Positions 6,481 to 21,980 of a DNA stretch of 24,266 bases are shown here, in pieces. The notes beneath the pieces are model-generated. The model was given only the letters and a program-made list of their open reading frames with translations, had not been told where the DNA came from and did no database searches. The translations under genes were made by a program, and so were the position numbers. The stretch spans positions 1 to 24,266 of the IMG/VR virus record IMGVR_UViG_3300042923_000801; one strand, 5' to 3'. Source of the DNA: a virus. Numbering within the stretch: the first letter of the stretch is position 1; every line of letters starts with the position of its first letter.

Positions 6481-7464
6481 TCAAGAAGCATATTTAAATA
6501 TATACCCTTTAGTTTTATTTATTTTACCATTTAAACATAAACTAATTGATGCTACAGAAACTCCAGTTAATTTAGATGCTTCTTTTTGATCGTATGTACT
6601 AAATAAATAATCTAAGTTAATATTAAAGATTTTTATTGATTGTTTTTCTTTTATTTTGTCAATTATCTCAGATTTAACATGCCTTGAATAACTCCATATA
6701 AAACCTTTATGAAACAAACACTTCTCTTTGCAACACTTTATTACAGCAGATGGATCAAAGCCATATTTAGTAGTTTCGTTAGAACTATCCCATTCTTTTA
6801 TTAATTCTCCATCGAAATTAAATTGATATATCTTTTTTGCTTGTGTGTTTTGGTTAATATAATCATTTAAATTAAATTCTTCAATTTCAGATTCATATAA
6901 CCAGATATATCCTTTATATGTTTTTCTTGTTTTGTTTAAACAAGTCCAAATTACTGATTGAATTATATTTAATTCTTTGCCAGCTCTTCTTGCACTTGAC
7001 CATAATTTTACTATATTACCATTCAAGTCGATTTGATAAACTGGAATAGATTCAAATTCATGCGCTTTAATATTTGCTTTCATAATTTCATATTTTTCAT
7101 CAGCGGTTTTATTTAATCTCGCTTGACTTATTTTTTTACCAAAATCAGGAGAAACATCTTTATCTTTACTTCCACCTAAATCTCGATTATATCCATTTTT
7201 ATATGTATTATATTTTGCTATATAAAATTTTTCTCTTTCATCTATACACATATAGTCACAATTTTCTATAATATAAAAGTTAAAATTTTTATTACCATAT
7301 TTATTCCATGCTCTTTGCAACTGTATATTGTAATGTTTGTTATTATTTAATTCAGATTTATGAGTTCTCCATCTTTGATTAATATCAATGCTTTGACCAA
7401 TATATTTTTTATTATTTATTAAATTTTCAATACAATAAATTCCACAAATCTTATTTTTAGCCAT
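6481..7464 (-). CDS. Free-standing GIY-YIG homing endonuclease with NUMOD1-like repeats
   Basis: 327 aa. GIY (residues 8-10) and YIG (21-23) begin the catalytic domain, followed by QRWRTH with the usual arginine, IIENC, and YNRDLGG at about residue 95. The C-terminal half has three repeats ending in KGYIWLYE, KGFIWSYS and KGYIFKYA, each preceded by a V/I-Y-Q/F-D/N-L/F-x-G start. This is the NUMOD1 DNA-binding layout of phage Seg-like and intron-encoded nucleases. These enzymes cut a homologous intergenic site so that their gene is copied into it. It sits alone between a terminator and the acidic gene, has GGAAGG before its ATG and no phage promoter of its own. No intron borders are visible, so it is probably free-standing. 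Confidence 0.93.
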   Translation of the reverse strand: MAKNKICGIYCIENLINNKKYIGQSIDINQRWRTHKSELNNNKHYNIQLQRAWNKYGNKNFNFYIIENCDYMCIDEREKFYIAKYNTYKNGYNRDLGGSKDKDVSPDFGKKISQARLNKTADEKYEIMKANIKAHEFESIPVYQIDLNGNIVKLWSSARRAGKELNIIQSVIWTCLNKTRKTYKGYIWLYESEIEEFNLNDYINQNTQAKKIYQFNFDGELIKEWDSSNETTKYGFDPSAVIKCCKEKCLFHKGFIWSYSRHVKSEIIDKIKEKQSIKIFNINLDYLFSTYDQKEASKLTGVSVASISLCLNGKINKTKGYIFKYAS

Positions 7465-11118: not shown

Positions 11119-13968
11119 TTACATTTCTTTATTATTTCTATATTTCTGAACTCTTAATCTTGTGTTTTCTTTGTCTTTGATTTTTTGACATTTCTTACAT
11201 CTAATTGTTTTCATGTCACACGCACTTGTTATTATATCACATCCGCAATCAATACACTTGATATTTTTTGTTTTTTTAGGAATGTATTTAGCACAATCAT
11301 TGCAGTATTTATGGTAATTTTGTTTCTTTTTAAATCTTTTACCACATTTACCACAGACACCATCTTTATCTCCTATGTTCCTTTTTAAATTTTCTACAAT
11401 AATTTTACCGTAACAAAACCATAAAGACTCTTTTGACTTACTATTCTTTTCATCGTACAAATATTTAACTAGCATATCACAAATTTCATATTCAGAATAT
11501 TTAAATTTACTTAATTCATCTCGAATTTCTAGTGCTATATAAGATATATTACCTTTGTTTTCATCTTCCATATTAATTTTAAAATGATATGTACGATTTA
11601 ACTCGTTATATTTATTTATTAATTCTTCTGATAATTTAATTTGACTGTTATTCATCAACATAGTATAGTTAAATTTCCCAAACTTATTAATAGAAAAATT
11701 CATTTTTTTATTAATAATAATATCATCTAACTTGTTTACTATACTATCATTTTTACTTTCAATTTGAGATAACTCTTTGTCTTTTGCATAAATAAAAAAA
11801 TATGGTACTTTTTTCTTTGTGTATTTTGTAATTATTTTTTTTATTTCTATAGGTCGTTTAGGCTTATACAAAGTCTTTGCATAATCAATTGTAAAGTTAT
11901 TTTCCATGCAAAGTAACTTTATGGCTTTCATCTTTTCATCAGTAATAATTCCACTATTCCATATTTTTGTGATATCATTACTTATTGCTCCTATATTTCC
12001 TCCAGTATATGCTGCATTCAAACCATTATATATCTGCTCGTTTGTTAATATAACAGGATCTGCCTTCCTCATATTGTAATACAACGGAACAATATCTCGC
12101 ATATTCCTCTCCGCTATTTGTACAATGCTTTTTTCTGCTACAACCAAACTACGATCCCCATCTACATCAAATTGAAGTATTTTAGAAATTAAGTCATGAC
12201 AACTCGTATAAATAGCGTCAGTTATAAACCATTTTGATTTTTCATCATCTATTACATTATTTCTTACCGCATGTTCTCTGTATAAGTGTGGAGATCTTAA
12301 GCAATCAAGTTTTTCAACTTTCTTATACAAGTTACAATATACTTCATTATTTTGTAATAATCCTACTGGCTCTTTTATTCCACAAAATAAATTTTCACAA
12401 AAAGCGTACATGTCAGGTATTAAGAAAGTGTACTTCCCATCAATTTCTAACTTTGCAGATTTATAATCTTTGATTAAACTTAATTTAATTTGCCTTAATA
12501 CATCCTTTGTGTAAATATCTCTTAATAACTCGGGGTATATTTCTAACGCTTGTTGTAAATATGTTTTATTTTTATTGTACTTTGTCACTCCAAAAGCATT
12601 TAGCATGGAATCTACTGTAGATGACAAATTTACTATTTTATTACTTGATTTGAAAGCAATATCAACTAATTCATCATCTGTCATATCTGTAAGAGTTTGA
12701 ATCATTTGATAATTTATTTTTGATTTTTTTATATTATCTTCCTCTAAATTACAAATTCCTGCTTGACACTTATTTTCACTGAAATATTTTTGATACTCAT
12801 TCCATGATTCATAATATTTATACATTTTAAATTGACTTTTAGTAAAAATTATTTTTATATCTTCTTCTAGAATATTATGTTCTTTGCCATATATGTCTTT
12901 TACCATTTCATGTTTTATTTCAGGATGTAATTCATTCTGTTCTAATATAAATTTTTTGAAATCAAAAGTAGCAAGTAAACCTTTTACCCAAGGTAGTCTA
13001 CACATAAAATTCTTTTTACTTATAGACGGGAGCATCATGCCAGATCCATCTGTATGTGTAATTGGAACAGGCATCGTTTTTCTTTCTATTGTATAAGTAA
13101 GATCATCAATCAAATCCACCTCTCCGGTAACATTCGTTTCAAAATCTTCAACTACTATGGTTTTATTAATATCAAAATCTTTCCATAAATCAGTCGCGCT
13201 ATTAGTTAAAGCTAAATATGCTAAATATTTATTAACATTTATTCCGCCTAATTCATTTATTTTTTCTATTGTTAAACCACATAATAAAGTTTTAATATGT
13301 CTGTTCCAAACGGATTCTTTAATAAAAACTGTCTTTTTTGTACGAATTTGACCAGCAGAAGAAGTAAAAAACCTATACTTTTCCCCATTATAAATAAATC
13401 CGTGTAAAATCATATCTTTTATAACATCAAAATAATACACTTGAACTACCATAATATCTGTTGAGAGATCATTAGTTTTTAATCCAACCGTACGAGTAAA
13501 TGTTGACTCAAAAACTGATATTATGTTTTTAATATTTAAACTTTTTTCTTTTAAAACTCTCATTTGATAGCTATGATTAAACTCTTTATTATAATATTGA
13601 TTATAATCACATCTATATTCTAAGATTTGTAATAATTTATCTTTAGAACTTTCAATTAACAACTTTTTATGTTCAAGATATCTTTCAATGTTGTCCTTTC
13701 TATTTAAAAGCTCAATAATATTATAGCCTATATACCTATATTCTTGATCTTCGGGTATAAATGAATAATCATTTTTATTTATCATTTCTTCAATTTCTTC
13801 ATTATATCCATAAAAATTCAGTTTTTCATTTATTGATTTCATTTCATTTTTCAATTTGTTACGTTCTGATTTTAATTTATAAATAATATTATGTAACTTT
13901 CTTTCATTTTTATAATAAAAATCTCCAGTGTCTAAACTATAGATATGTATTTGTTCAGAAAGTGCCAA
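11119..13968 (-). CDS. Single-chain two-barrel RNA polymerase (YonO/QDE-1-like) with two C-terminal zinc ribbons
   Basis: 949 aa. The catalytic signature DVDGD lies at residues 601-605 (FDVDGDRSLVV), the Mg-binding DxDGD of the double-psi-barrel polymerases that include SPbeta YonO and eukaryotic QDE-1-type enzymes. YonO is a single-chain DNA-dependent RNA polymerase for phage late genes. About 40 residues before it comes LDCLRSPHLYREHAVRNN, like the conserved RxPxLHxxD region. A Gln/Thr-rich core (SSAGQIRTKK, about 205) precedes. The N-terminus is coiled coil. The C-terminus carries two Cys4 ribbons: C872/C875/C889/C892 and C905/C908/C924/C927. Start is TTG, 9 nt after AGGAGG inside the preceding gene and 2 nt after its stop. 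Likely job: transcribing from the ATAAATATAACA promoters (inference). Confidence 0.87.
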   Translation of the reverse strand: MALSEQIHIYSLDTGDFYYKNERKLHNIIYKLKSERNKLKNEMKSINEKLNFYGYNEEIEEMINKNDYSFIPEDQEYRYIGYNIIELLNRKDNIERYLEHKKLLIESSKDKLLQILEYRCDYNQYYNKEFNHSYQMRVLKEKSLNIKNIISVFESTFTRTVGLKTNDLSTDIMVVQVYYFDVIKDMILHGFIYNGEKYRFFTSSAGQIRTKKTVFIKESVWNRHIKTLLCGLTIEKINELGGINVNKYLAYLALTNSATDLWKDFDINKTIVVEDFETNVTGEVDLIDDLTYTIERKTMPVPITHTDGSGMMLPSISKKNFMCRLPWVKGLLATFDFKKFILEQNELHPEIKHEMVKDIYGKEHNILEEDIKIIFTKSQFKMYKYYESWNEYQKYFSENKCQAGICNLEEDNIKKSKINYQMIQTLTDMTDDELVDIAFKSSNKIVNLSSTVDSMLNAFGVTKYNKNKTYLQQALEIYPELLRDIYTKDVLRQIKLSLIKDYKSAKLEIDGKYTFLIPDMYAFCENLFCGIKEPVGLLQNNEVYCNLYKKVEKLDCLRSPHLYREHAVRNNVIDDEKSKWFITDAIYTSCHDLISKILQFDVDGDRSLVVAEKSIVQIAERNMRDIVPLYYNMRKADPVILTNEQIYNGLNAAYTGGNIGAISNDITKIWNSGIITDEKMKAIKLLCMENNFTIDYAKTLYKPKRPIEIKKIITKYTKKKVPYFFIYAKDKELSQIESKNDSIVNKLDDIIINKKMNFSINKFGKFNYTMLMNNSQIKLSEELINKYNELNRTYHFKINMEDENKGNISYIALEIRDELSKFKYSEYEICDMLVKYLYDEKNSKSKESLWFCYGKIIVENLKRNIGDKDGVCGKCGKRFKKKQNYHKYCNDCAKYIPKKTKNIKCIDCGCDIITSACDMKTIRCKKCQKIKDKENTRLRVQKYRNNKEM

Positions 13969-13970
13969 TA

Positions 13971-14987
13971 CTATCTTCCTCCTTTGTCATTAGATAAAAC
14001 AAGATTAACAATACTTTTTAATTCAGTATTTATATATCTATAATAATCATCGTAAGCCCATTTTTTATTTTGTCTAAAAGGAACGTCCATCCGATATAAA
14101 TTAATATTATTATCTATACAATATTTGTTTTTCTGGTTGTCTCTTTCTCTTGCTATTAAACGTTTTTTACAATTATCGTGATTATCTCTGTGTTCTTCGT
14201 CATCAATTTCGATCAAGTAAATCAGTTCATTTTTGTTTGATAACAATGCAAAATCGAATTTTAATTTTTCATTATTCTTACCTTCCAACGAATCAAACTT
14301 ATATTGAATCTCAATATTTAAACCAAATGAATTTAAATAGTCCCACACAACTTTCTCTGAAAAAGGCATACTACAAATAGGACACCATCTCCCTTTCTTG
14401 ATATTATTAGGTAATATATCCCAATCATAATTATGAGTCTTACAACGAACCTTTATATATGTTCCCGCATTTATGTATTCAGATAATAATTCTCCGTTTT
14501 TTGATTGTACTATTTGCTCTATTTCATTTTCAAAATCTCCTCGCCTACCACAACAATATGGGCACCAATGATTTCCGCTATATAAAGAGTCTGCTGTAGT
14601 TCTAAATGGAGGATGGTTTGGATCATTACACTTAAATTCGTATATTGTCTTTGCAGTTTTCCATTCTTTAGACAGCAATATTCCATCATGATCTTCGCAA
14701 TATTGTTTTAATCTTTGATAATAATATTTTTTATCTTTCATATCATGTTTTTCTAATCCCTTTTTGCTTTTATTTTCTCGCTGACATTCTTTACATGGTA
14801 AAAAATAATTCTTACATATATTTTTAGCATTAATTGTAGTTGTTGTATCTCCATGTTTTTCACAATGATAAATTAATTCAATGGGATTTTCTGACCCATT
14901 ATATTCTCCTATAATATCTACCTTATCACCATGATATTTTCTAACTTTTTCTTTAAACCATTCTTGACTTTTGTTTATATGTCCCAT
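13971..14987 (-). CDS. Zn-ribbon homing-type endonuclease, Vsr-like/EDxHD fold
   Basis: 338 aa. Three treble-clef/zinc-ribbon repeats are visible: C42/H45/C65/C68, C120/C142/C145 and C182/H185/C202/C205, the last two ending in WCPYC and WCPIC. The C-terminal nuclease part has KFDFAL (D245), then LIEIDDEEHRD (E260, D262, H266), RERDNQKNKYC, and a final LYRMD strand. This matches the Vsr-like (PD-(D/E)XK superfamily) or EDxHD nucleases found as phage homing endonucleases with zinc-ribbon DNA readers. AAAGGAG precedes the ATG. A phage promoter starts 30 nt upstream, so it has its own control. Insertion just before the RNA polymerase gene, whose ribosome binding site lies inside its last codons, is typical of mobile intergenic endonucleases. 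Specific target unknown. Confidence 0.82.
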   Translation of the reverse strand: MGHINKSQEWFKEKVRKYHGDKVDIIGEYNGSENPIELIYHCEKHGDTTTTINAKNICKNYFLPCKECQRENKSKKGLEKHDMKDKKYYYQRLKQYCEDHDGILLSKEWKTAKTIYEFKCNDPNHPPFRTTADSLYSGNHWCPYCCGRRGDFENEIEQIVQSKNGELLSEYINAGTYIKVRCKTHNYDWDILPNNIKKGRWCPICSMPFSEKVVWDYLNSFGLNIEIQYKFDSLEGKNNEKLKFDFALLSNKNELIYLIEIDDEEHRDNHDNCKKRLIARERDNQKNKYCIDNNINLYRMDVPFRQNKKWAYDDYYRYINTELKSIVNLVLSNDKGGR

Positions 14988-15556: not shown

Positions 15557-17452
15557 TTAGAATTTTTTCTTATTATATTTTCTTTTTTTAGGTTTAGTAA
15601 TATTGTTTATTAAAATAGTGTCTCCTAAATCTTTTATGAATGGACTTATTTCATAAACTTGATCATTGTACATACTTGAATGAGATAAAAACAATTCTTG
15701 TTCTGCCCTTGTTATTCCTACATAAAACAGTCTTTTTTCTTCATTAATATCCAGAGTTCTTCTATGTGGAAGCAATCCATCACTGCATCCAGATATAAAA
15801 ACAATTTTAAATTCAAGCCCTTTTGATTTATGTAATGTTAATAATTTAATTCCAGAATCTATATCTTTAATTCTTTCATTATTTTCTTTTAGTTCATTTA
15901 AATAAATATTTAATTCGTTTACAGTTTTAAATTGCTTACATAAATCCTCGAAACTATCCATATTTTCAATCTGAGGAGATAATCCATCTTCATCCATTTC
16001 TCCTTTGCTAACAAATGAATCAATGTCTAACCGCTTCCTAATATAAGATACCATACCCTTTACATTAGCAAATTTTTTATTTCTTAAATAATTGATTACC
16101 TTATATATTTCATCTATACCATTTTTATATCTCCAGTTTCTTCTTGCTATATTATCCATTCCGTTAAATAATGAATCTCCGGCTTTAATGGTATTTTCAA
16201 CTTCACTTAAAAACTTTTTATCTAGCCATCTATTAGGTTTATTATAAATTTCTCTGAATGCGTCATTATCATAAATATTATTTGATAATTTGAGATATCC
16301 AACAAGTAATTTAATTTCTTTTAAGTCTGTTATTATTTTTCCATCAACAACATCAAAAGGTATTCTATTATCGTGTAAGACTGATTCAAATTTTTGTAGT
16401 TGCGCATTAGTTCTTGCCAATATAGATATATCTTTATATGGAATTCCTGCCCCGTGCAGTTCCTTAATTTTATTTGATATTCCTTTGCATTCTTCATATG
16501 AATTTTCATATTCCGTAAAAATTGGTTTACTATATGGAGGGTTATTTGCCTTACTTTTTATATAATTTCTATGTTGGCTTTCTGGTATACTTTCAGCAAA
16601 TTTGTTTGCAGAATCAACAATGTCTTTGCTACACCTATAATTAATATCTAAATTGATAACATCTACATTATTCCATAAACAATCAAAATCAAGTAAGTAT
16701 TCACTTTTTCCACCAGAAAATCCATATATTGCTTGCATCATATCTCCAACGACAAATACATTATTATTTTTTCCCAGCATCGTAATTAGTTTTGCTTGAT
16801 TCATTGAAACATCTTGGTATTCGTCCGATAATATATATTTAAATCTATTCTGATATGACTTTAATATTTTATCGTCAGATTCTAATATTTCGCAAGCTAA
16901 ATTTAAAAAGTCATCAAACTCAATAAACGAATTTAACTCTTTGTATTCTTCATATTTTTTATATATTTTTATCATGTTCTCGTTGCTATAGGAATATGTC
17001 TTTTCAAATATTAATTTATCATTTGGTTTTAACATATTATTTTTTTGAATTTTAATAAATAAAAATATCTCATTAAAATCTATTTCAGGGTTGCAAGATA
17101 TCGGTTTAATTATGTCCGTAATTACTTTTTCTTTTTGCCATTGGATATCCCATAATTTAAATTTTGATCCATATTTACTACTTATTATCTTTAAAGCGAG
17201 AGAGTGGAAAGTCTCAGTATTAACAGATGAAAAAGAGTTTATCATTGTTTTTAATCTTGTATCCATATTCTCTTTTGCTTTTCTGCTAAAGGTAATTGCT
17301 AAAATATTTGCTGGATTTACATCATATTCTTCAATTAGTTTTACAATTCTATTTGTAAGTACAGATGTCTTTCCGCTTCCAGGAGCGGCAATGACAGCAG
17401 TATTACCATTTAGCTTATTTATTGCTTTAATCTGATTGTCGTTAAATTTCAA
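15557..17452 (-). CDS. UvrD/PcrA-type superfamily 1 DNA helicase
   Basis: 631 aa with the SF1A motif set in order: Walker A AAPGSGKT (22-29), ITFSRKAKENM (Ia), TFHSLALKI, DEYQD (210-214, motif II), GDMMQAIYGFSGG (236-248, III), NYRC (IV), LLTLHKSKGLEFKIVFISG (V) and FYVGITRAEQELFL (VI). It is slightly shorter than chromosomal PcrA and ends in a basic tail (KPKKRKYNKKK). Role: ATP-driven 3'-5' unwinding in phage replication, recombination or repair. The TTG start overlaps the upstream TGA (TTGA), with GGAGG 10 nt before it, indicating coupled translation. A phage promoter motif lies 35 nt upstream, inside the end of the preceding gene. Confidence 0.93.
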   Translation of the reverse strand: MKFNDNQIKAINKLNGNTAVIAAPGSGKTSVLTNRIVKLIEEYDVNPANILAITFSRKAKENMDTRLKTMINSFSSVNTETFHSLALKIISSKYGSKFKLWDIQWQKEKVITDIIKPISCNPEIDFNEIFLFIKIQKNNMLKPNDKLIFEKTYSYSNENMIKIYKKYEEYKELNSFIEFDDFLNLACEILESDDKILKSYQNRFKYILSDEYQDVSMNQAKLITMLGKNNNVFVVGDMMQAIYGFSGGKSEYLLDFDCLWNNVDVINLDINYRCSKDIVDSANKFAESIPESQHRNYIKSKANNPPYSKPIFTEYENSYEECKGISNKIKELHGAGIPYKDISILARTNAQLQKFESVLHDNRIPFDVVDGKIITDLKEIKLLVGYLKLSNNIYDNDAFREIYNKPNRWLDKKFLSEVENTIKAGDSLFNGMDNIARRNWRYKNGIDEIYKVINYLRNKKFANVKGMVSYIRKRLDIDSFVSKGEMDEDGLSPQIENMDSFEDLCKQFKTVNELNIYLNELKENNERIKDIDSGIKLLTLHKSKGLEFKIVFISGCSDGLLPHRRTLDINEEKRLFYVGITRAEQELFLSHSSMYNDQVYEISPFIKDLGDTILINNITKPKKRKYNKKKF

Positions 17453-18555
17453 TTTTTACTATCCTCCAATTTAAGTATTTGTTTTATGTTATATTTATCA
17501 TTTTCATGATTGATGGTTATATCACATAGATTTGTAAATATATCTAAATATTTTTCACTATATTTCAATATGACATTTTTTACATCCTTATCATATCTTG
17601 TATTTGCATTTCTCATAATTAAAGATTGGAATTCTATATTAAATTCTTTGATAAAATCATCAATACTTTTATTTATGTCAAATTCCTTCAATAAAGATTT
17701 ACACCAATCCAAATGTATAAAATATACTTCATAAGTTTTGTATATGTATTTTATATTCCTAGAATTCAATTCTCTTGCCAATGCCAACGAAAATATCTTT
17801 GATTCATCCCCATAATATCTTTTATTAGCTCTACCTTTTTCTATTCCGGCTTCGTTATCTGCAATTTCAACACATTTAGTATAAAATCCCATTTCCTCTT
17901 CAGAAGCAGTATGTTCCTCTGATTCATAATACAATTCATACTTAGGTTTCCCATTTTCATCGTAGCCTGACATTCTCTCTGCTGGAATTGAACTATGAAC
18001 GACATTTGCTTCCCGCCATATTATTGAACCAGTACTTTTTAAATAATCTAATGACATAACGAGATAAGATGATATCATATCGTCTACCTTTATAAAGAAA
18101 TCTTTAACATCATCACTTTCCCACTCATATATTCTGGCAACTTCACTTCTAGAGTATTTTACGGTATCATAATTTCTATTTATCATATGTATCTGTTTTG
18201 CCCACTTACTACTTGTTAAAGCAATACGATTGTTTTCGTCATGCCCCTCAATTAACTTTAATAATATAAGTGGAACAATGTACCTATACATACCATTCAT
18301 CATTTTTTCTACTTCTTTAGATTTTGGAACAGAATATACCTCCTTAATTTCATATTTTCTGTTCCCGAGATCTAACAACTTACAATATCTGTTTGCACTA
18401 TTTATAATCGTAGTCTTATTACTACTAATAAACTTCCCATTCTCGTAATACTTATTCTTTTGTTTATCCGTCCCAAATAATTCAATTAAATCTTCTTCAT
18501 TTATAATTCCAATTGGGATAACTGGTTTAATATATTGATTTTTCTTTTTTCTAAT
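17449..18555 (-). CDS. Hypothetical phage protein, AUU start (368 aa)
   Basis: The frame is open back to a TAA just above the ribosome binding site. Its first ATG/GTG/TTG is the TTG at 18378, but the 59 codons before that read as ordinary protein (basic N-terminus RKKKNQYIKP, then NEEDLIELFG). A perfect AAAGGAGG stands 7 nt before ATT 18555-18553, so AUU initiation is strongly indicated. No family recognised: mostly helical, charged and soluble, with WREANVVHSSIPAERM around residue 185. It is the first full gene behind the leftward sigma-A promoter and is coupled to the helicase, so a role in replication or early regulation is plausible but unproven. The last 50 bases hold a phage promoter motif. 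Confidence 0.83.
   Translation of the reverse strand: MRKKKNQYIKPVIPIGIINEEDLIELFGTDKQKNKYYENGKFISSNKTTIINSANRYCKLLDLGNRKYEIKEVYSVPKSKEVEKMMNGMYRYIVPLILLKLIEGHDENNRIALTSSKWAKQIHMINRNYDTVKYSRSEVARIYEWESDDVKDFFIKVDDMISSYLVMSLDYLKSTGSIIWREANVVHSSIPAERMSGYDENGKPKYELYYESEEHTASEEEMGFYTKCVEIADNEAGIEKGRANKRYYGDESKIFSLALARELNSRNIKYIYKTYEVYFIHLDWCKSLLKEFDINKSIDDFIKEFNIEFQSLIMRNANTRYDKDVKNVILKYSEKYLDIFTNLCDITINHENDKYNIKQILKLEDSKN
17487..17498 (-). promoter_or_regulatory. Phage promoter motif ATAAATATAACA (helicase), inside coding sequence
   Basis: Exact 12-mer inside the 3' end of the 368-aa gene (encoding ...DKYNIK...), 34 nt from the helicase TTG. The codons there are compatible with both uses. Confidence 0.7.
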
Positions 18556-18587
18556 ACGAATACCTCCTTTAAATTAAATTGTTTACA

Positions 18588-18639
18588 ATCCTATTTTTGG
18601 TACATATATATAATATATATTATGTACACATTTTAGGAT
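18588..18639 (-). other. Long AT-rich palindromic hairpin upstream of the AUU-start gene
   Basis: ATCCTA/TAGGAT (18588-18593 and 18634-18639) enclose GTACATA/TATGTAC with an alternating TA core. It lies 18 nt above the AGGAGG of the 368-aa gene, so it could influence that gene's translation in RNA or extrude as a DNA cruciform. Confidence 0.5.
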
Positions 18640-18650
18640 AGGTAAATAGA

Positions 18651-18662
18651 TGTTATATTTAT
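18651..18662 (-). promoter_or_regulatory. Phage promoter motif ATAAATATAACA (368-aa gene)
   Basis: Exact 12-mer about 95 nt upstream of the AUU start, between two hairpins. Possible later-phase promoter for the whole leftward block, separate from the sigma-A promoter. Confidence 0.72.
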
Positions 18663-18721
18663 CTTATGGATATAAATTTGCGTAAACAACGTACTTTGTT
18701 GTTGTAGCAATGGCAATAAGC

Positions 18722-18748
18722 TTATTCTTTTTTATAAGCGTTTGACAT
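18722..18748 (-). CDS. Possible 8-aa leader peptide
   Basis: ATG followed by seven codons and TAA (MSNAYKKE), with GAGAAAGGAG 12 nt upstream of the ATG and 9 nt upstream of an in-frame ATT. Its 3' half is one arm of a GCTTAT/ATAAGC hairpin (18720-18739). Such an arrangement can couple translation to attenuation, but the frame is so short that chance is possible. Confidence 0.35.
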   Translation of the reverse strand: MSNAYKKE

Positions 18749-18772
18749 AATTATTATTTTCTCCTTTCTCGG

Positions 18773-18784
18773 TGTTATATTTAT
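18773..18784 (-). promoter_or_regulatory. Phage promoter motif ATAAATATAACA (leader region)
   Basis: Exact 12-mer just upstream of the ribosome binding site of the possible leader peptide and about 50 nt downstream of the sigma-A promoter. Confidence 0.7.
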
Positions 18785-18836
18785 TTAGTAGTAATAACTT
18801 TGTAGTATTTATCGGTATAGTAACCCCTACACTTTA

Positions 18837-18865
18837 ATTATATCATAGGTGAAAAATTCTGTCAA
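18837..18865 (-). promoter_or_regulatory. Consensus sigma-A promoter, leftward
   Basis: Minus strand TTGACA (18865-18860), exactly 17 nt of spacer, then TATAAT (18842-18837). This is a perfect vegetative promoter for host RNA polymerase, starting near 18830. It would launch leftward transcription of the 368-aa protein, helicase, endonuclease and RNA polymerase genes before any phage polymerase exists. Confidence 0.88.
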
Positions 18866-18870
18866 GCAAA

Positions 18871-18882
18871 TGTTATATTTCT
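18871..18882 (-). promoter_or_regulatory. Near copy (11/12) of the phage promoter motif
   Basis: Plus-strand reading TGTTATATTTCT, one base off the complement of the 12-mer, directly upstream of the -35 box of the sigma-A promoter. The flanking TGTTnTATTTCTTTAnTAG also resembles the rightward promoter at 20193-20212. Confidence 0.4.
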
Positions 18883-18934
18883 TTATTAGTTTTTTGATAC
18901 TTCGGGAGCTGATCAGGTAGAAGAGTTATAACCC

Positions 18935-19060
18935 CAGTAATCATGCAGAACAGAGCGATTTTTGCCTTTAACAGATAAATCATATTTTAACCATTTTCTT
19001 AGATTTTTCAACTTTTCTCTATGATTTCGAAAAAAATCCAGTGTTTATGCATGATTACTG
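18935..19060. repeat. 13-bp perfect inverted repeat, arms 100 nt apart
   Basis: CAGTAATCATGCA (18935-18947) and TGCATGATTACTG (19048-19060) are exact reverse complements. The 100 nt between are pyrimidine-rich on the plus strand. This could close a structured RNA domain or be a pair of protein-binding sites brought together by looping. Confidence 0.7.
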
Positions 19061-19342
19061 TGATTTTCATGATATTTTTGATTATTCTATTTTATAGGTA
19101 AATATACTTTATACATTGGCATAAATGTAGTGTTTGTCAGCGTTGCAGCTATTTAACATTTATTTTATTGCATAAGTATGCATTCTTATTATGTAACACA
19201 TGAATTTGGCTTAATGGTTTATTTTACTGGATTCTACCGAAACGCCTATCGAAGAATAATGGGGTAAAATGTGAATATTGTTGCGGAATTGATGAATATT
19301 TGCTTCGATGTTTATTTTGAATTATGAGGTGTGGATTGAACA

Positions 19343-19397
19343 GATGGGGCATTCCGGTGAAAATAAATCCGGTCTGGATTTGTAAAATAGCCCCGTC
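19343..19397. ncRNA. Candidate structured RNA domain with GC-rich closing stem
   Basis: GATGGGGC (19343-19350) pairs with GCCCCGTC (19390-19397) over 8 bp including one G-U. Inside is an AAATCC/GGATTT hairpin with a 5-nt loop. A run of G/C pairs is exceptional in this AT-rich DNA. Strand and function unknown. Confidence 0.45.
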
Positions 19398-19589
19398 ATA
19401 TGGTATAGATACTGCATAATAGTATAGTATTATTCAGCGTTTTAGTAGTCAGTTTCATAAAAGATGATTTTAAGAATGTCATTTTAGCTGTAATACGGTG
19501 CATGAGATTGAAATAATGTAAAGTTAACTTGTCAATTGTAACTTTATTCGTTATTAGTGTACTAGTAAGATAGTACAGATAGACTATGA

Positions 19590-20000
19590 AAACGTTCGGA
19601 TTATTTCTGTTGCAAATGCAACAAACTAAAATTATAACGTTTACTGATATATCGTTTACCGTAATAATGCGTTTATATGTATCGTATGCCGATATAGTAT
19701 AGCCGTTGGTAGCTCAACGTTAACCAATAGAATGAATATAACTTCAAATTATATCAACGTGTATTATCATAACTATAACTTATAACATGTTAATCAACAA
19801 GAATTTATCGTAATACGATATATAATCCAATGTTATCACGACATCATTAACCATAACTAATACTTATACCATTAACGGCTAATCTAGTGCAATATATCAT
19901 GTGTTATATTTATCCACTAATCAATCCGCAACATGTTGATAAATAAATGCAACCTAACCATATACCATTGTAACCGCGTATAAGCTCCATGCAGCCATTA
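19590..20000. other. Possible replication origin (iteron- and DnaA-box-like words)
   Basis: CGTTTA occurs at 19639, 19653 and 19670 with related AACGTT words at 19592 and 19715. TTATCCACT (19909-19917) and TGTTGATAA (19934-19942, inverted) are each one base from the DnaA box TTATNCACA. An AT-rich stretch follows. Position at the divergence of the two gene blocks fits an origin, but the matches are imperfect and no initiator gene is recognised here. Confidence 0.3.
19902..19913 (-). promoter_or_regulatory. Phage promoter motif ATAAATATAACA in non-coding DNA
   Basis: Exact 12-mer with no gene within 1.3 kb downstream on the minus strand. It would transcribe leftward through the hairpin-rich region, perhaps making non-coding RNA or an origin primer. 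Confidence 0.6.
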
Positions 20001-20193
20001 ATCAAATCAGGCATAGGATAATACCTAAAATCAATTATAATTAATTCTATGTGGTACAATATATAGTGGTATAACTATGATTATATCAATAATAACCACA
20101 ATATATAGTATGAAATAAATAGTATTATATGATTCTGTTTTATAAAAATATCACGAAAACTTAATAAAAATCGTAAAAATAATAAATTATATG

Positions 20194-20222
20194 TTGTATT
20201 TCTTTAATAGATATGATATACT
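20194..20222 (+). promoter_or_regulatory. Probable sigma-A promoter, rightward
   Basis: TTGTAT, 17-nt spacer, TATACT, about 50 nt upstream of the first rightward gene. Four matches to TTGACA and five to TATAAT with ideal spacing; likely the early promoter of the rightward block. Confidence 0.6.
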
Positions 20223-20270
20223 TATATCAAGATAAGAAATAAATAAAACCTAAATATGGAGGATATAAAA

Positions 20271-20465
20271 ATGAAAAGAGAATATGTAATAGAAATTTGT
20301 GGGTATGGGAAAAAGGTTAGATATGCATTAAGAGAAAGAATAACTCCAACTATGTTAAATGCAGCAATTAAAGTTAGTAGGTCACTCGACAGTGTAAAGA
20401 CATATGCAATAGAAAATAATATCAAAGTTGTAGCTATTGGTGACATGTATCAAGTAATGGCATAA
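20271..20465 (+). CDS. Small hypothetical protein (64 aa), first rightward gene
   Basis: 64 aa. Start at ATG 20271 because GGAGG (20258-20262) lies 8 nt before it; the longer in-frame ATG at 20256 would contain that site. Basic, compact alpha/beta-looking sequence (YVIEICGYGKKVRYALRERI, then NNIKVVAIGDMYQVMA) with no recognised family. Its stop codon TAA shares a base with the hammerhead ribozyme, so its mRNA would be cut about 54 nt after the stop codon. Confidence 0.8.
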   Translation: MKREYVIEICGYGKKVRYALRERITPTMLNAAIKVSRSLDSVKTYAIENNIKVVAIGDMYQVMA

Positions 20466-20525
20466 TTACCCTGATGAGTCTTTGAAAATTAAGACGAAAC
20501 TAACCTTAAATGGTTAGTCGGTAAT
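20465..20525 (+). ncRNA. Type I hammerhead ribozyme
   Basis: All conserved parts are present and correctly joined. Stem I 5' strand ATTACC (20465-20470). Core CTGATGA (20471-20477). Stem II GTCTT/AAGAC with an 8-nt loop. Core GAAA (20495-20498). Stem III ACTAACC/GGTTAGT closed by TTAAAT. Unpaired C at 20519 as cleavage site, preceded by the required U. Stem I 3' strand GGTAAT (20520-20525). Stems II and III are capped and stem I is open, hence type I. Predicted self-cleavage is after C20519. It follows the stop codon of the 64-aa gene directly, so it would trim that gene's mRNA 3' end and give the downstream RNA a 5'-OH. Confidence 0.93.
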
Positions 20526-20603: not shown

Positions 20604-21286
20604 CATCGGTTTATCAAAGCACAGAAAGCCTATTCTGGTTAAACAGTAAAGTAGTTAAACAGTAAGTAAACAGATTATGATTAAACATTCCGAATAACAA
20701 AAATATTTAAATCAATCTAAACAGGGCTATAATAAATAGTTATTACGTGCAAATCGTAAAATAGGTTATCAGTAAATGAAACATATCAATCATAAGTCCT
20801 TAAAGTCCTAACGGCACTTGAACAATGACAACTTAATCTAAGTCGGCTTTTCGTATAGACACGAAAGGAAGTTACTCATACAACTTACCCATAAGACATG
20901 AAACGGGATACATTGGAAAGTGTGAGACTGCCAGCATACAATAAGTAATGCATTGCAGTATAAATAACAAATCTAACAATTAACTGCTTACTGAATTCTA
21001 TCAGAATTAGCGGTTAAACAGAATTAATATAACAGTGTTTTTATATAATGCTAATAACCTGATTACCTGTATAAGTAATAGCATATGGCAATCACATAAA
21101 CAGTATATATCATATAAAGTGTATACACCAACGAAAACGAATTAATCAACAGAATGTAGCGTAAAACCGAAATTTGAGGTTGATTTAAGTAGTTGAATAT
21201 TAAAGGAATGAAACACAAAATAAATATGATTGAATGGATTTGGCAAGGTTATTAGCATGAATATTTACATTGCAACTCAATAACAA
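20604..21286 (+). other. Non-coding stretch with AAACAG repeats and hairpins
   Basis: About 680 nt without a credible gene. AAACAG occurs six times (twice as TTAAACAGTAA near 20640 and 20656; also near 20668, 20719, 21016 and 21108). Hairpins include TTTCGT/ACGAAA (about 20848-20866), AATTC/GAATT (about 20994-21008) and a nested ATGCT/AGCAT plus ATTAC/GTAAT (about 21048-21085). A plus-strand near copy of the phage promoter (ATTAATATAACA, 11/12) lies at 21023-21034. It could be a long 3' UTR, a non-coding RNA or an origin part. Confidence 0.45.
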
Positions 21287-21298: not shown

Positions 21299-21314
21299 TG
21301 TTTCACGTGAAACA
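21299..21314. promoter_or_regulatory. Perfect parS site (ParB/Spo0J binding)
   Basis: TGTTTCACGTGAAACA is identical to the consensus 16-bp chromosomal parS bound by bacterial ParB (Spo0J in Bacillus), and the palindrome extends to 18 bp (ATGTTTCACGTGAAACAT). ParB loads at parS, spreads, and with ParA/Soj and SMC drives segregation. No ParA or ParB gene is visible in the window, so the site would use host ParB or a phage ParB encoded elsewhere. It lies in the leader of the 57-aa gene, between a promoter-like element and its ribosome binding site. Confidence 0.92.
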
Positions 21315-21546: not shown

Positions 21547-21882
21547 ATGGATAATACACAAAAAGAAATTGAAAAAATAATGGTAGAAAGTCTTTTTACA
21601 AAAGGTGGTACAATTTCAGAAGCTGAAGCAAGGGAAATAGTAAATAACAAAAAACAATTACAAAAGGTTACTGTTAGAAATTCCACTGGGCATATTATTA
21701 CTGGCTATGGTGTGATTATAGGCGAAACAAAAACAATGATAAAAGTAAGATTAACAGAAGTAAAAGATTATTGGAATAAACTATCAATCAATGACATTAT
21801 AGGCTTTTCTAAACTTGATGGAGTAAGCAAAGATACAAGACATAAAAGACAATACAAACTAGATTTTTGTATAGAATACTAG
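21547..21882 (+). CDS. Hypothetical protein (111 aa)
   Basis: 111 aa, preceded by AAGGAGG 10 nt before the ATG. N-terminal 40 residues are helical and charged (EKIMVESLF, ISEAEAREIVNNKKQ). The C-terminal part is beta-rich (KVTVRNSTGHIITGYGVIIG) and could be a small barrel, ending in a basic stretch DTRHKRQYK. No family recognised. Member of the rightward small-gene operon. Confidence 0.78.
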   Translation: MDNTQKEIEKIMVESLFTKGGTISEAEAREIVNNKKQLQKVTVRNSTGHIITGYGVIIGETKTMIKVRLTEVKDYWNKLSINDIIGFSKLDGVSKDTRHKRQYKLDFCIEY

Positions 21883-21914: not shown

Positions 21915-21980
21915 CTCTCTTGCAGAGGATAGCGGATTTTATTCCGCTATAATGCACTAGCAGCCGTTCCAAGTCGGTGC
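21915..21980 (+). promoter_or_regulatory. Three-hairpin 5' leader before the 70-aa gene
   Basis: Consecutive hairpins: CTCT/AGAG (loop TGC), ATAGCGGA/TCCGCTAT (8 bp, loop TTTTAT, 21929-21950) and GCAGCCG/CGGTGC (one bulged G, 21960-21980). The ribosome binding site AGGAG follows after 9 nt. No T-tract follows, so this looks like a structured leader or processing signal rather than a terminator. Confidence 0.5.

Follow-up and report, generated by a model that had tools for sequence, protein, structure and literature searches.

The gene-free junction at positions 18556-20270 of the window, a 24,266-bp viral contig representing a fragment of an SPβ-like phage, contains a conserved, hairpin-bearing noncoding element which, as judged from its sequence, is undescribed so far, and which occupies the same junction in the same orientation upstream of a YonO-type polymerase block in at least ten phage lineages. 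The evidence is good for the existence of this element, for its conservation and for where it lies. That the gap constitutes an SPβ-like divergent control region, and that its conserved element acts in the leader of the block on the RNA polymerase side, is put by us at close to an even chance.

The divergent junction

The junction separates a leftward block coding for a portal, a terminase, a beta-CASP protein, a phrog_284 exonuclease and a YonO-type RNA polymerase from a rightward block of small genes with no assigned function. The single-chain polymerase (11119-13968, - strand), with 47% identity over 95% to SPβ-group YonO, places the window among the SPβ-like (YonO-encoding) phages. Scans of viral and genome contigs with P0001 and UvrD, together with DNA similarity searches, returned no relatives. 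Also present in the leftward block were homing-endonuclease-like genes of the HNH and GIY-YIG/NUMOD types (13971-14987 and 6481-7464, - strand).

The first-pass annotation of this DNA had described the 1.7-kb gap as free of genes, a description borne out under code 11, under code 4 and with TAG read as Q; a search of 18556-20270 for hidden genes, reassigned stops included, yielded no convincing candidate. The gap adjoins the first leftward gene (17449-18555, - strand; phrog_36702 family), which probably starts at ATT. Neither this gene nor its equivalent in the related locus L003 had an ATG, GTG or TTG near the ribosome site, the codons concerned being ATT at window 18555 and ATA at L003 2995, and non-canonical starts are possible in both.

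On the rightward side, a hammerhead core (CTGATGA..GAAAC..GTC, canonical and with three stems present, albeit below the Rfam gathering score) was located at 20464-20525 (+ strand), directly past the stop of the open reading frame 20271-20465, and a type-P5 twister ribozyme scoring above the gathering threshold at 21921-21978 (+ strand), 3' of the frame 21547-21882. The rightward block thus carries two self-cleaving ribozymes behind small genes, and hammerhead-like motifs with core changes were recorded 3' of small frames in two other YonO loci (L025 and L027).

The same annotation had drawn attention to the gap through a set of local features that fared unequally, and in sum it pointed to a real object for partly wrong reasons. 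The supposed density of hairpins was not upheld, perfect stems of at least 7 numbering 4 as against 5.8 ± 2.6 in dinucleotide shuffles, and 3-7 in 1.7-kb pieces taken elsewhere in the window. Fold z-scores across the gap were ordinary with the exception of 18575-18724, where the first leftward gene has a strong inverted-repeat segment in its leader (z -4.0 on the + strand; -2.8 for the leader RNA). The 13-bp inverted repeat was indeed present, with arms at 18935-18947 and 19048-19060, and the GC-rich closed domain (19343-19397) proved to fall within the conserved element. Three CGTTTA repeats do lie within 38 bp, though they are weak evidence because thousands of words could have caught attention in the same way.

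Anatomy and distribution of the conserved element

The element extends over approximately 19238-19448 in leftward orientation, possibly reaching to about 18896, and comprises in order a covarying hairpin, GGGG..TTTACA, CCCC-ATCTGTTCnATCCACAC and TTCG-N8-TTCG, the family consensus being the hairpin followed by GGGGGTA..TTTACATTTT, CCCTATCTGTTCNATCCACAC and TTCG-N8-TTCG. The modelled part, hairpin plus conserved boxes (19324-19448, - strand), scored 93.8 bits against covariance model R1, of which it is a training member. Hairpin P1 (19408-19441, - strand) has arms of 14 nt and the loop CTATAC, and is supported by covariation; its core TAATACTATACTATTA (19417-19432, - strand) is a 16-mer that recurs exactly in the junctions of L003 and L025. 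Alignment with relatives defined the boxes GGGGCTATTTTACA (19381-19394, - strand; GGGGGTA..TTTACATTT in the family) and TGCCCCATCTGTTCAATCCACACCTCA (19325-19351, - strand). The TTCG-N8-TTCG box (19238-19253, - strand), for which the background rate is 0.019 per kb, is shared by 12 of the 13 members, in which it follows the core start at a distance of 124-191 nt and the two TTCGs are always 12 nt apart. Beyond it, TTTTCGAAATC (19023-19033, - strand) and CCCGAAGTATC (18896-18906, - strand) were aligned respectively to the first and second CGAACTC boxes of relatives, and the TTCG box may pair with these CGAA boxes. A GGGG-CCCC stem was also considered, and is not claimed because several members do not keep it.

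When the gap was compared with YonO loci, the 16-mer TAATACTATACTATTA was found intact in two other gene-free junctions, those of L003 and L025, and in no further locus of 176, except for L001, which is window sequence. Scans of viral and genome contigs returned a background of chance matches plus a clear family with common flanks. The 13 founder members from which the covariance model was built were picked by the exact 16-mer, and the invariance of inner stem and loop is consequently in part an effect of that selection, which does not extend to the outer pairs or to members held out of the model. Five held-out loci were recovered by the model, namely L031 (63 bits), L015 (46), SPβ (31.5), Perkons (30) and L027 (29.5), every match lying at the same junction and in the same orientation as in the window.

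When 250 genomes from a single bacterial family were scanned blind, just three matches reached 1e-4, one of them a founder, and the background is therefore low. One of the new matches (L396) was accompanied, in order, by an initiator-like gene, a ParB-like gene and a YonO-like polymerase; the other (L397) was devoid of such gene context. Around the founder L317, the locus L399 presented the element, DUF3825 genes and a YonO-like polymerase. Within the SPβ group, conservation of the element region extends to 24 Bacillus phage records, in which the region is either unannotated or overlain by a small hypothetical frame; a hypothetical protein annotated in BUCT082 (L385 171-284) runs antisense on the element and is probably no gene. 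No Rfam family, ROOL and GOLLD included, matched the element at gathering score or in E-value scans.

The comparison with related phages for covariation, which the first-pass annotation had suggested, confirmed that the hairpin arms covary: 8 of 16 pairs had changed on both sides, giving a score of 0.265 as against 0.131 ± 0.022 for shuffles and no more than 0.077 when the hairpin was slid. Addition of the SPβ-group hairpins, sequences that had no part in finding it, raised these figures to 11 of 14 pairs and 0.487 (0.173 ± 0.026 for shuffles). Entire arms have been replaced without loss of pairing, in contrast to a fixed protein-binding palindrome. An attP, dif or lox site, prompted by the 11-6-11 palindrome, was rejected as the main reading because the arms covary and the site remains whole between phage genes in prophages. 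Beyond P1 no conserved fold was found, so that a single helix is supported.

Candidate leftward promoters and competing roles

A leftward phage promoter had been proposed at 19902, and this site (19902-19914, - strand), about 450 nt ahead of the element, proved to be one of 8 exact copies in the window of the 13-mer TGTTATATTTATY (leftward, RATAAATATAACA). This is the top-enriched 10-mer family of the window, the word occurring 15 times at no more than one mismatch (1.19 expected); all 8 exact copies face left, and of 10 copies inspected 5 fall in the 100 nt that precede the start of a leftward gene, such positions making up only 6% of the window. Further candidates of this kind occur on the same strand at 18871-18883 (one mismatch), 18773-18785 and 18651-18663, and a consensus sigma-70/A promoter, TTGACA-17-TATAAT with TG, also points left at 18837-18865 (- strand). 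From their enrichment and placing, the TGTTATATTTATY copies are candidate promoters of the YonO-type phage polymerase, the promoter sequence of YonO itself being not known as of 2017 (PMC5467207). The 13-mer is not reused in relatives; Perkons (L050) has a word of its own, TAATTAAGTT, at 1583, 1838, 4889, 5491 and 11308, ahead of polymerase-block genes, which is a candidate promoter word of another YonO phage. Between two of the window's candidate promoters lies an eight-codon frame with a good ribosome site (18773-18725, - strand), followed by a hairpin, and it may represent a leader peptide.

The promoter-like sites point through the element, which always precedes the YonO-type polymerase block in one position and one orientation. 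The covarying arms suggest that the element would act in single-stranded, folded form. Most likely it would belong to a long leader RNA governing transcription of the polymerase block, possibly by processive antitermination or by attenuation, either ahead of the switch to the phage polymerase or in the course of it. Such a role would account for the retention of the element despite changes in the first gene behind it (initiator-like, DUF3825 protein or yonP). Somewhat short of an even chance is what we give the fuller proposal, namely that the element represents a family of structured RNAs, not described before, that is found in SPβ-like phages, including the SPβ prophage of the B. subtilis laboratory strain, and controls expression of the YonO RNA polymerase block. 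Of the original suggestion of either an origin of replication or a cluster of structured RNAs, the second half survives in the narrower form of one covarying hairpin plus conserved boxes, and the first as weak context.

An origin at the junction is a rival reading, prompted by an initiator-like first leftward gene and by a skew flip at that point; the neighbouring gene would then be the initiator, and the element a part of the origin, as a DNA hairpin or as an RNA primer that the phage polymerase might synthesize. We consider this unlikely. The best VIA structural match of the first leftward gene product, obtained with a moderate AlphaFold model (pLDDT 66), was the replication initiator RepE54, though at a Z of 5.3, values below 8 being not specific; Foldseek gave no significant match. 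Winged-helix-like genes occupy the same place in L003, L015, L018 and L031, that of L003 having a weak replication-initiation match and a predicted structure too poor to use, and the L185 gene there has a weak match to Rep3_N (E 0.076); however, in the Lachnospiraceae members the first gene codes for a DUF3825 protein and no initiator. GC skew, another check that had been suggested, does switch beside the first leftward gene in the window as in L003, but it tracks gene direction and is confounded by it. In L003, moreover, an exact DnaA box, TGTGGATAA, occurs near 2923, and three AT-rich 14-mers immediately precede the gene at this place. DnaA-like boxes, two of which had been listed for the gap, on the other hand showed no enrichment in the window (40 as against 49 expected, none of them exact), the cluster of exact boxes that marks a DnaA-dependent bacterial-type origin was absent from the window, and iterons in the gap were not above chance. 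Noncoding DNA 1 kb rightward of the gap contains a perfect bacterial parS site (21299-21314; TGTTTCACGTGAAACA), which would suit an origin. Nearby, TAAACAG occurs six times on one strand (20640-21103, + strand) as against three times elsewhere in the window, and may constitute iterons; ParB-like genes were noted near the junction in L025 and L396. Origin and control-element roles could coexist.

Strand-specific evidence bears on a different possibility, that the element is a noncoding RNA of the rightward strand, either with the small early genes as its targets or antisense to the leader of the polymerase block. Read leftward, the hairpin cells include fewer G-U (9) than A-C (21) combinations, so that mismatches turn to G-U on the rightward strand (21 versus 9), and the leftward strand of the element is C-rich and G-poor, a composition which with the scarcity of G-U would better suit an opposite-strand RNA or a DNA role. 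The G-rich rightward strand also folds more stably (RNAalifold -9.9 versus -8.4), yet fold energies resembled those of shuffles on both strands with equal mean z; no conserved promoter facing that way was identified, and within the gap every exact copy of the 13-mer faces left, as does the consensus sigma-70 promoter. A rightward RNA accordingly seems to us distinctly improbable. It is very improbable indeed that the gap is a mere AT-rich divergent promoter spacer with hairpins and boxes by chance, a reading which the shuffle-like hairpin density would fit and which may hold for 19450-20270, but which for the element is contradicted by long-range conservation, covariation and blind recovery at the same locus in SPβ and prophages.

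Relation to SPβ and other phage RNAs

The closest parallel to the leader element proposed here is the yonP/yonR junction of SPβ (NC_001884 64110-65061), where the same element was found blind, in the same place and orientation ahead of the YonO operon, as a covariance-model match at 64512-64639. SPβ differs in its hairpin arms and loop, in having ATCG-N8-ATCG rather than TTCG-N8-TTCG, and in its shorter gap, and the element is unannotated in the record. A YonO-transcribed noncoding RNA has been described in SPβ upstream of yonK, in the yonN-yonK gap (PMC5467207). The likeness would be that of a long noncoding leader directed toward late genes in a YonO phage; that RNA lies in a different place from the junction element, and no relation between the two is implied.

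Phage antitermination leader RNAs such as HK022 put and EAR are cis-acting leaders that head long operons, and their likeness to the junction element would lie in the proposed role alone. ROOL and GOLLD, like the gap element, are phage noncoding sequences of several hundred nt without a reading frame. These large ornate RNAs, described in PMC12286853, differ in that the junction element has no Rfam match to either and one conserved helix was found in it. According to a review of 2021 (PMC8270828), the replication of SPβ had yet to be investigated. SPβ is a model temperate phage; now that its polymerase-operon junction has yielded a conserved element, and a relative a promoter word specific to that phage, the questions of replication and of the YonO promoter become directly testable in an ordinary laboratory strain.
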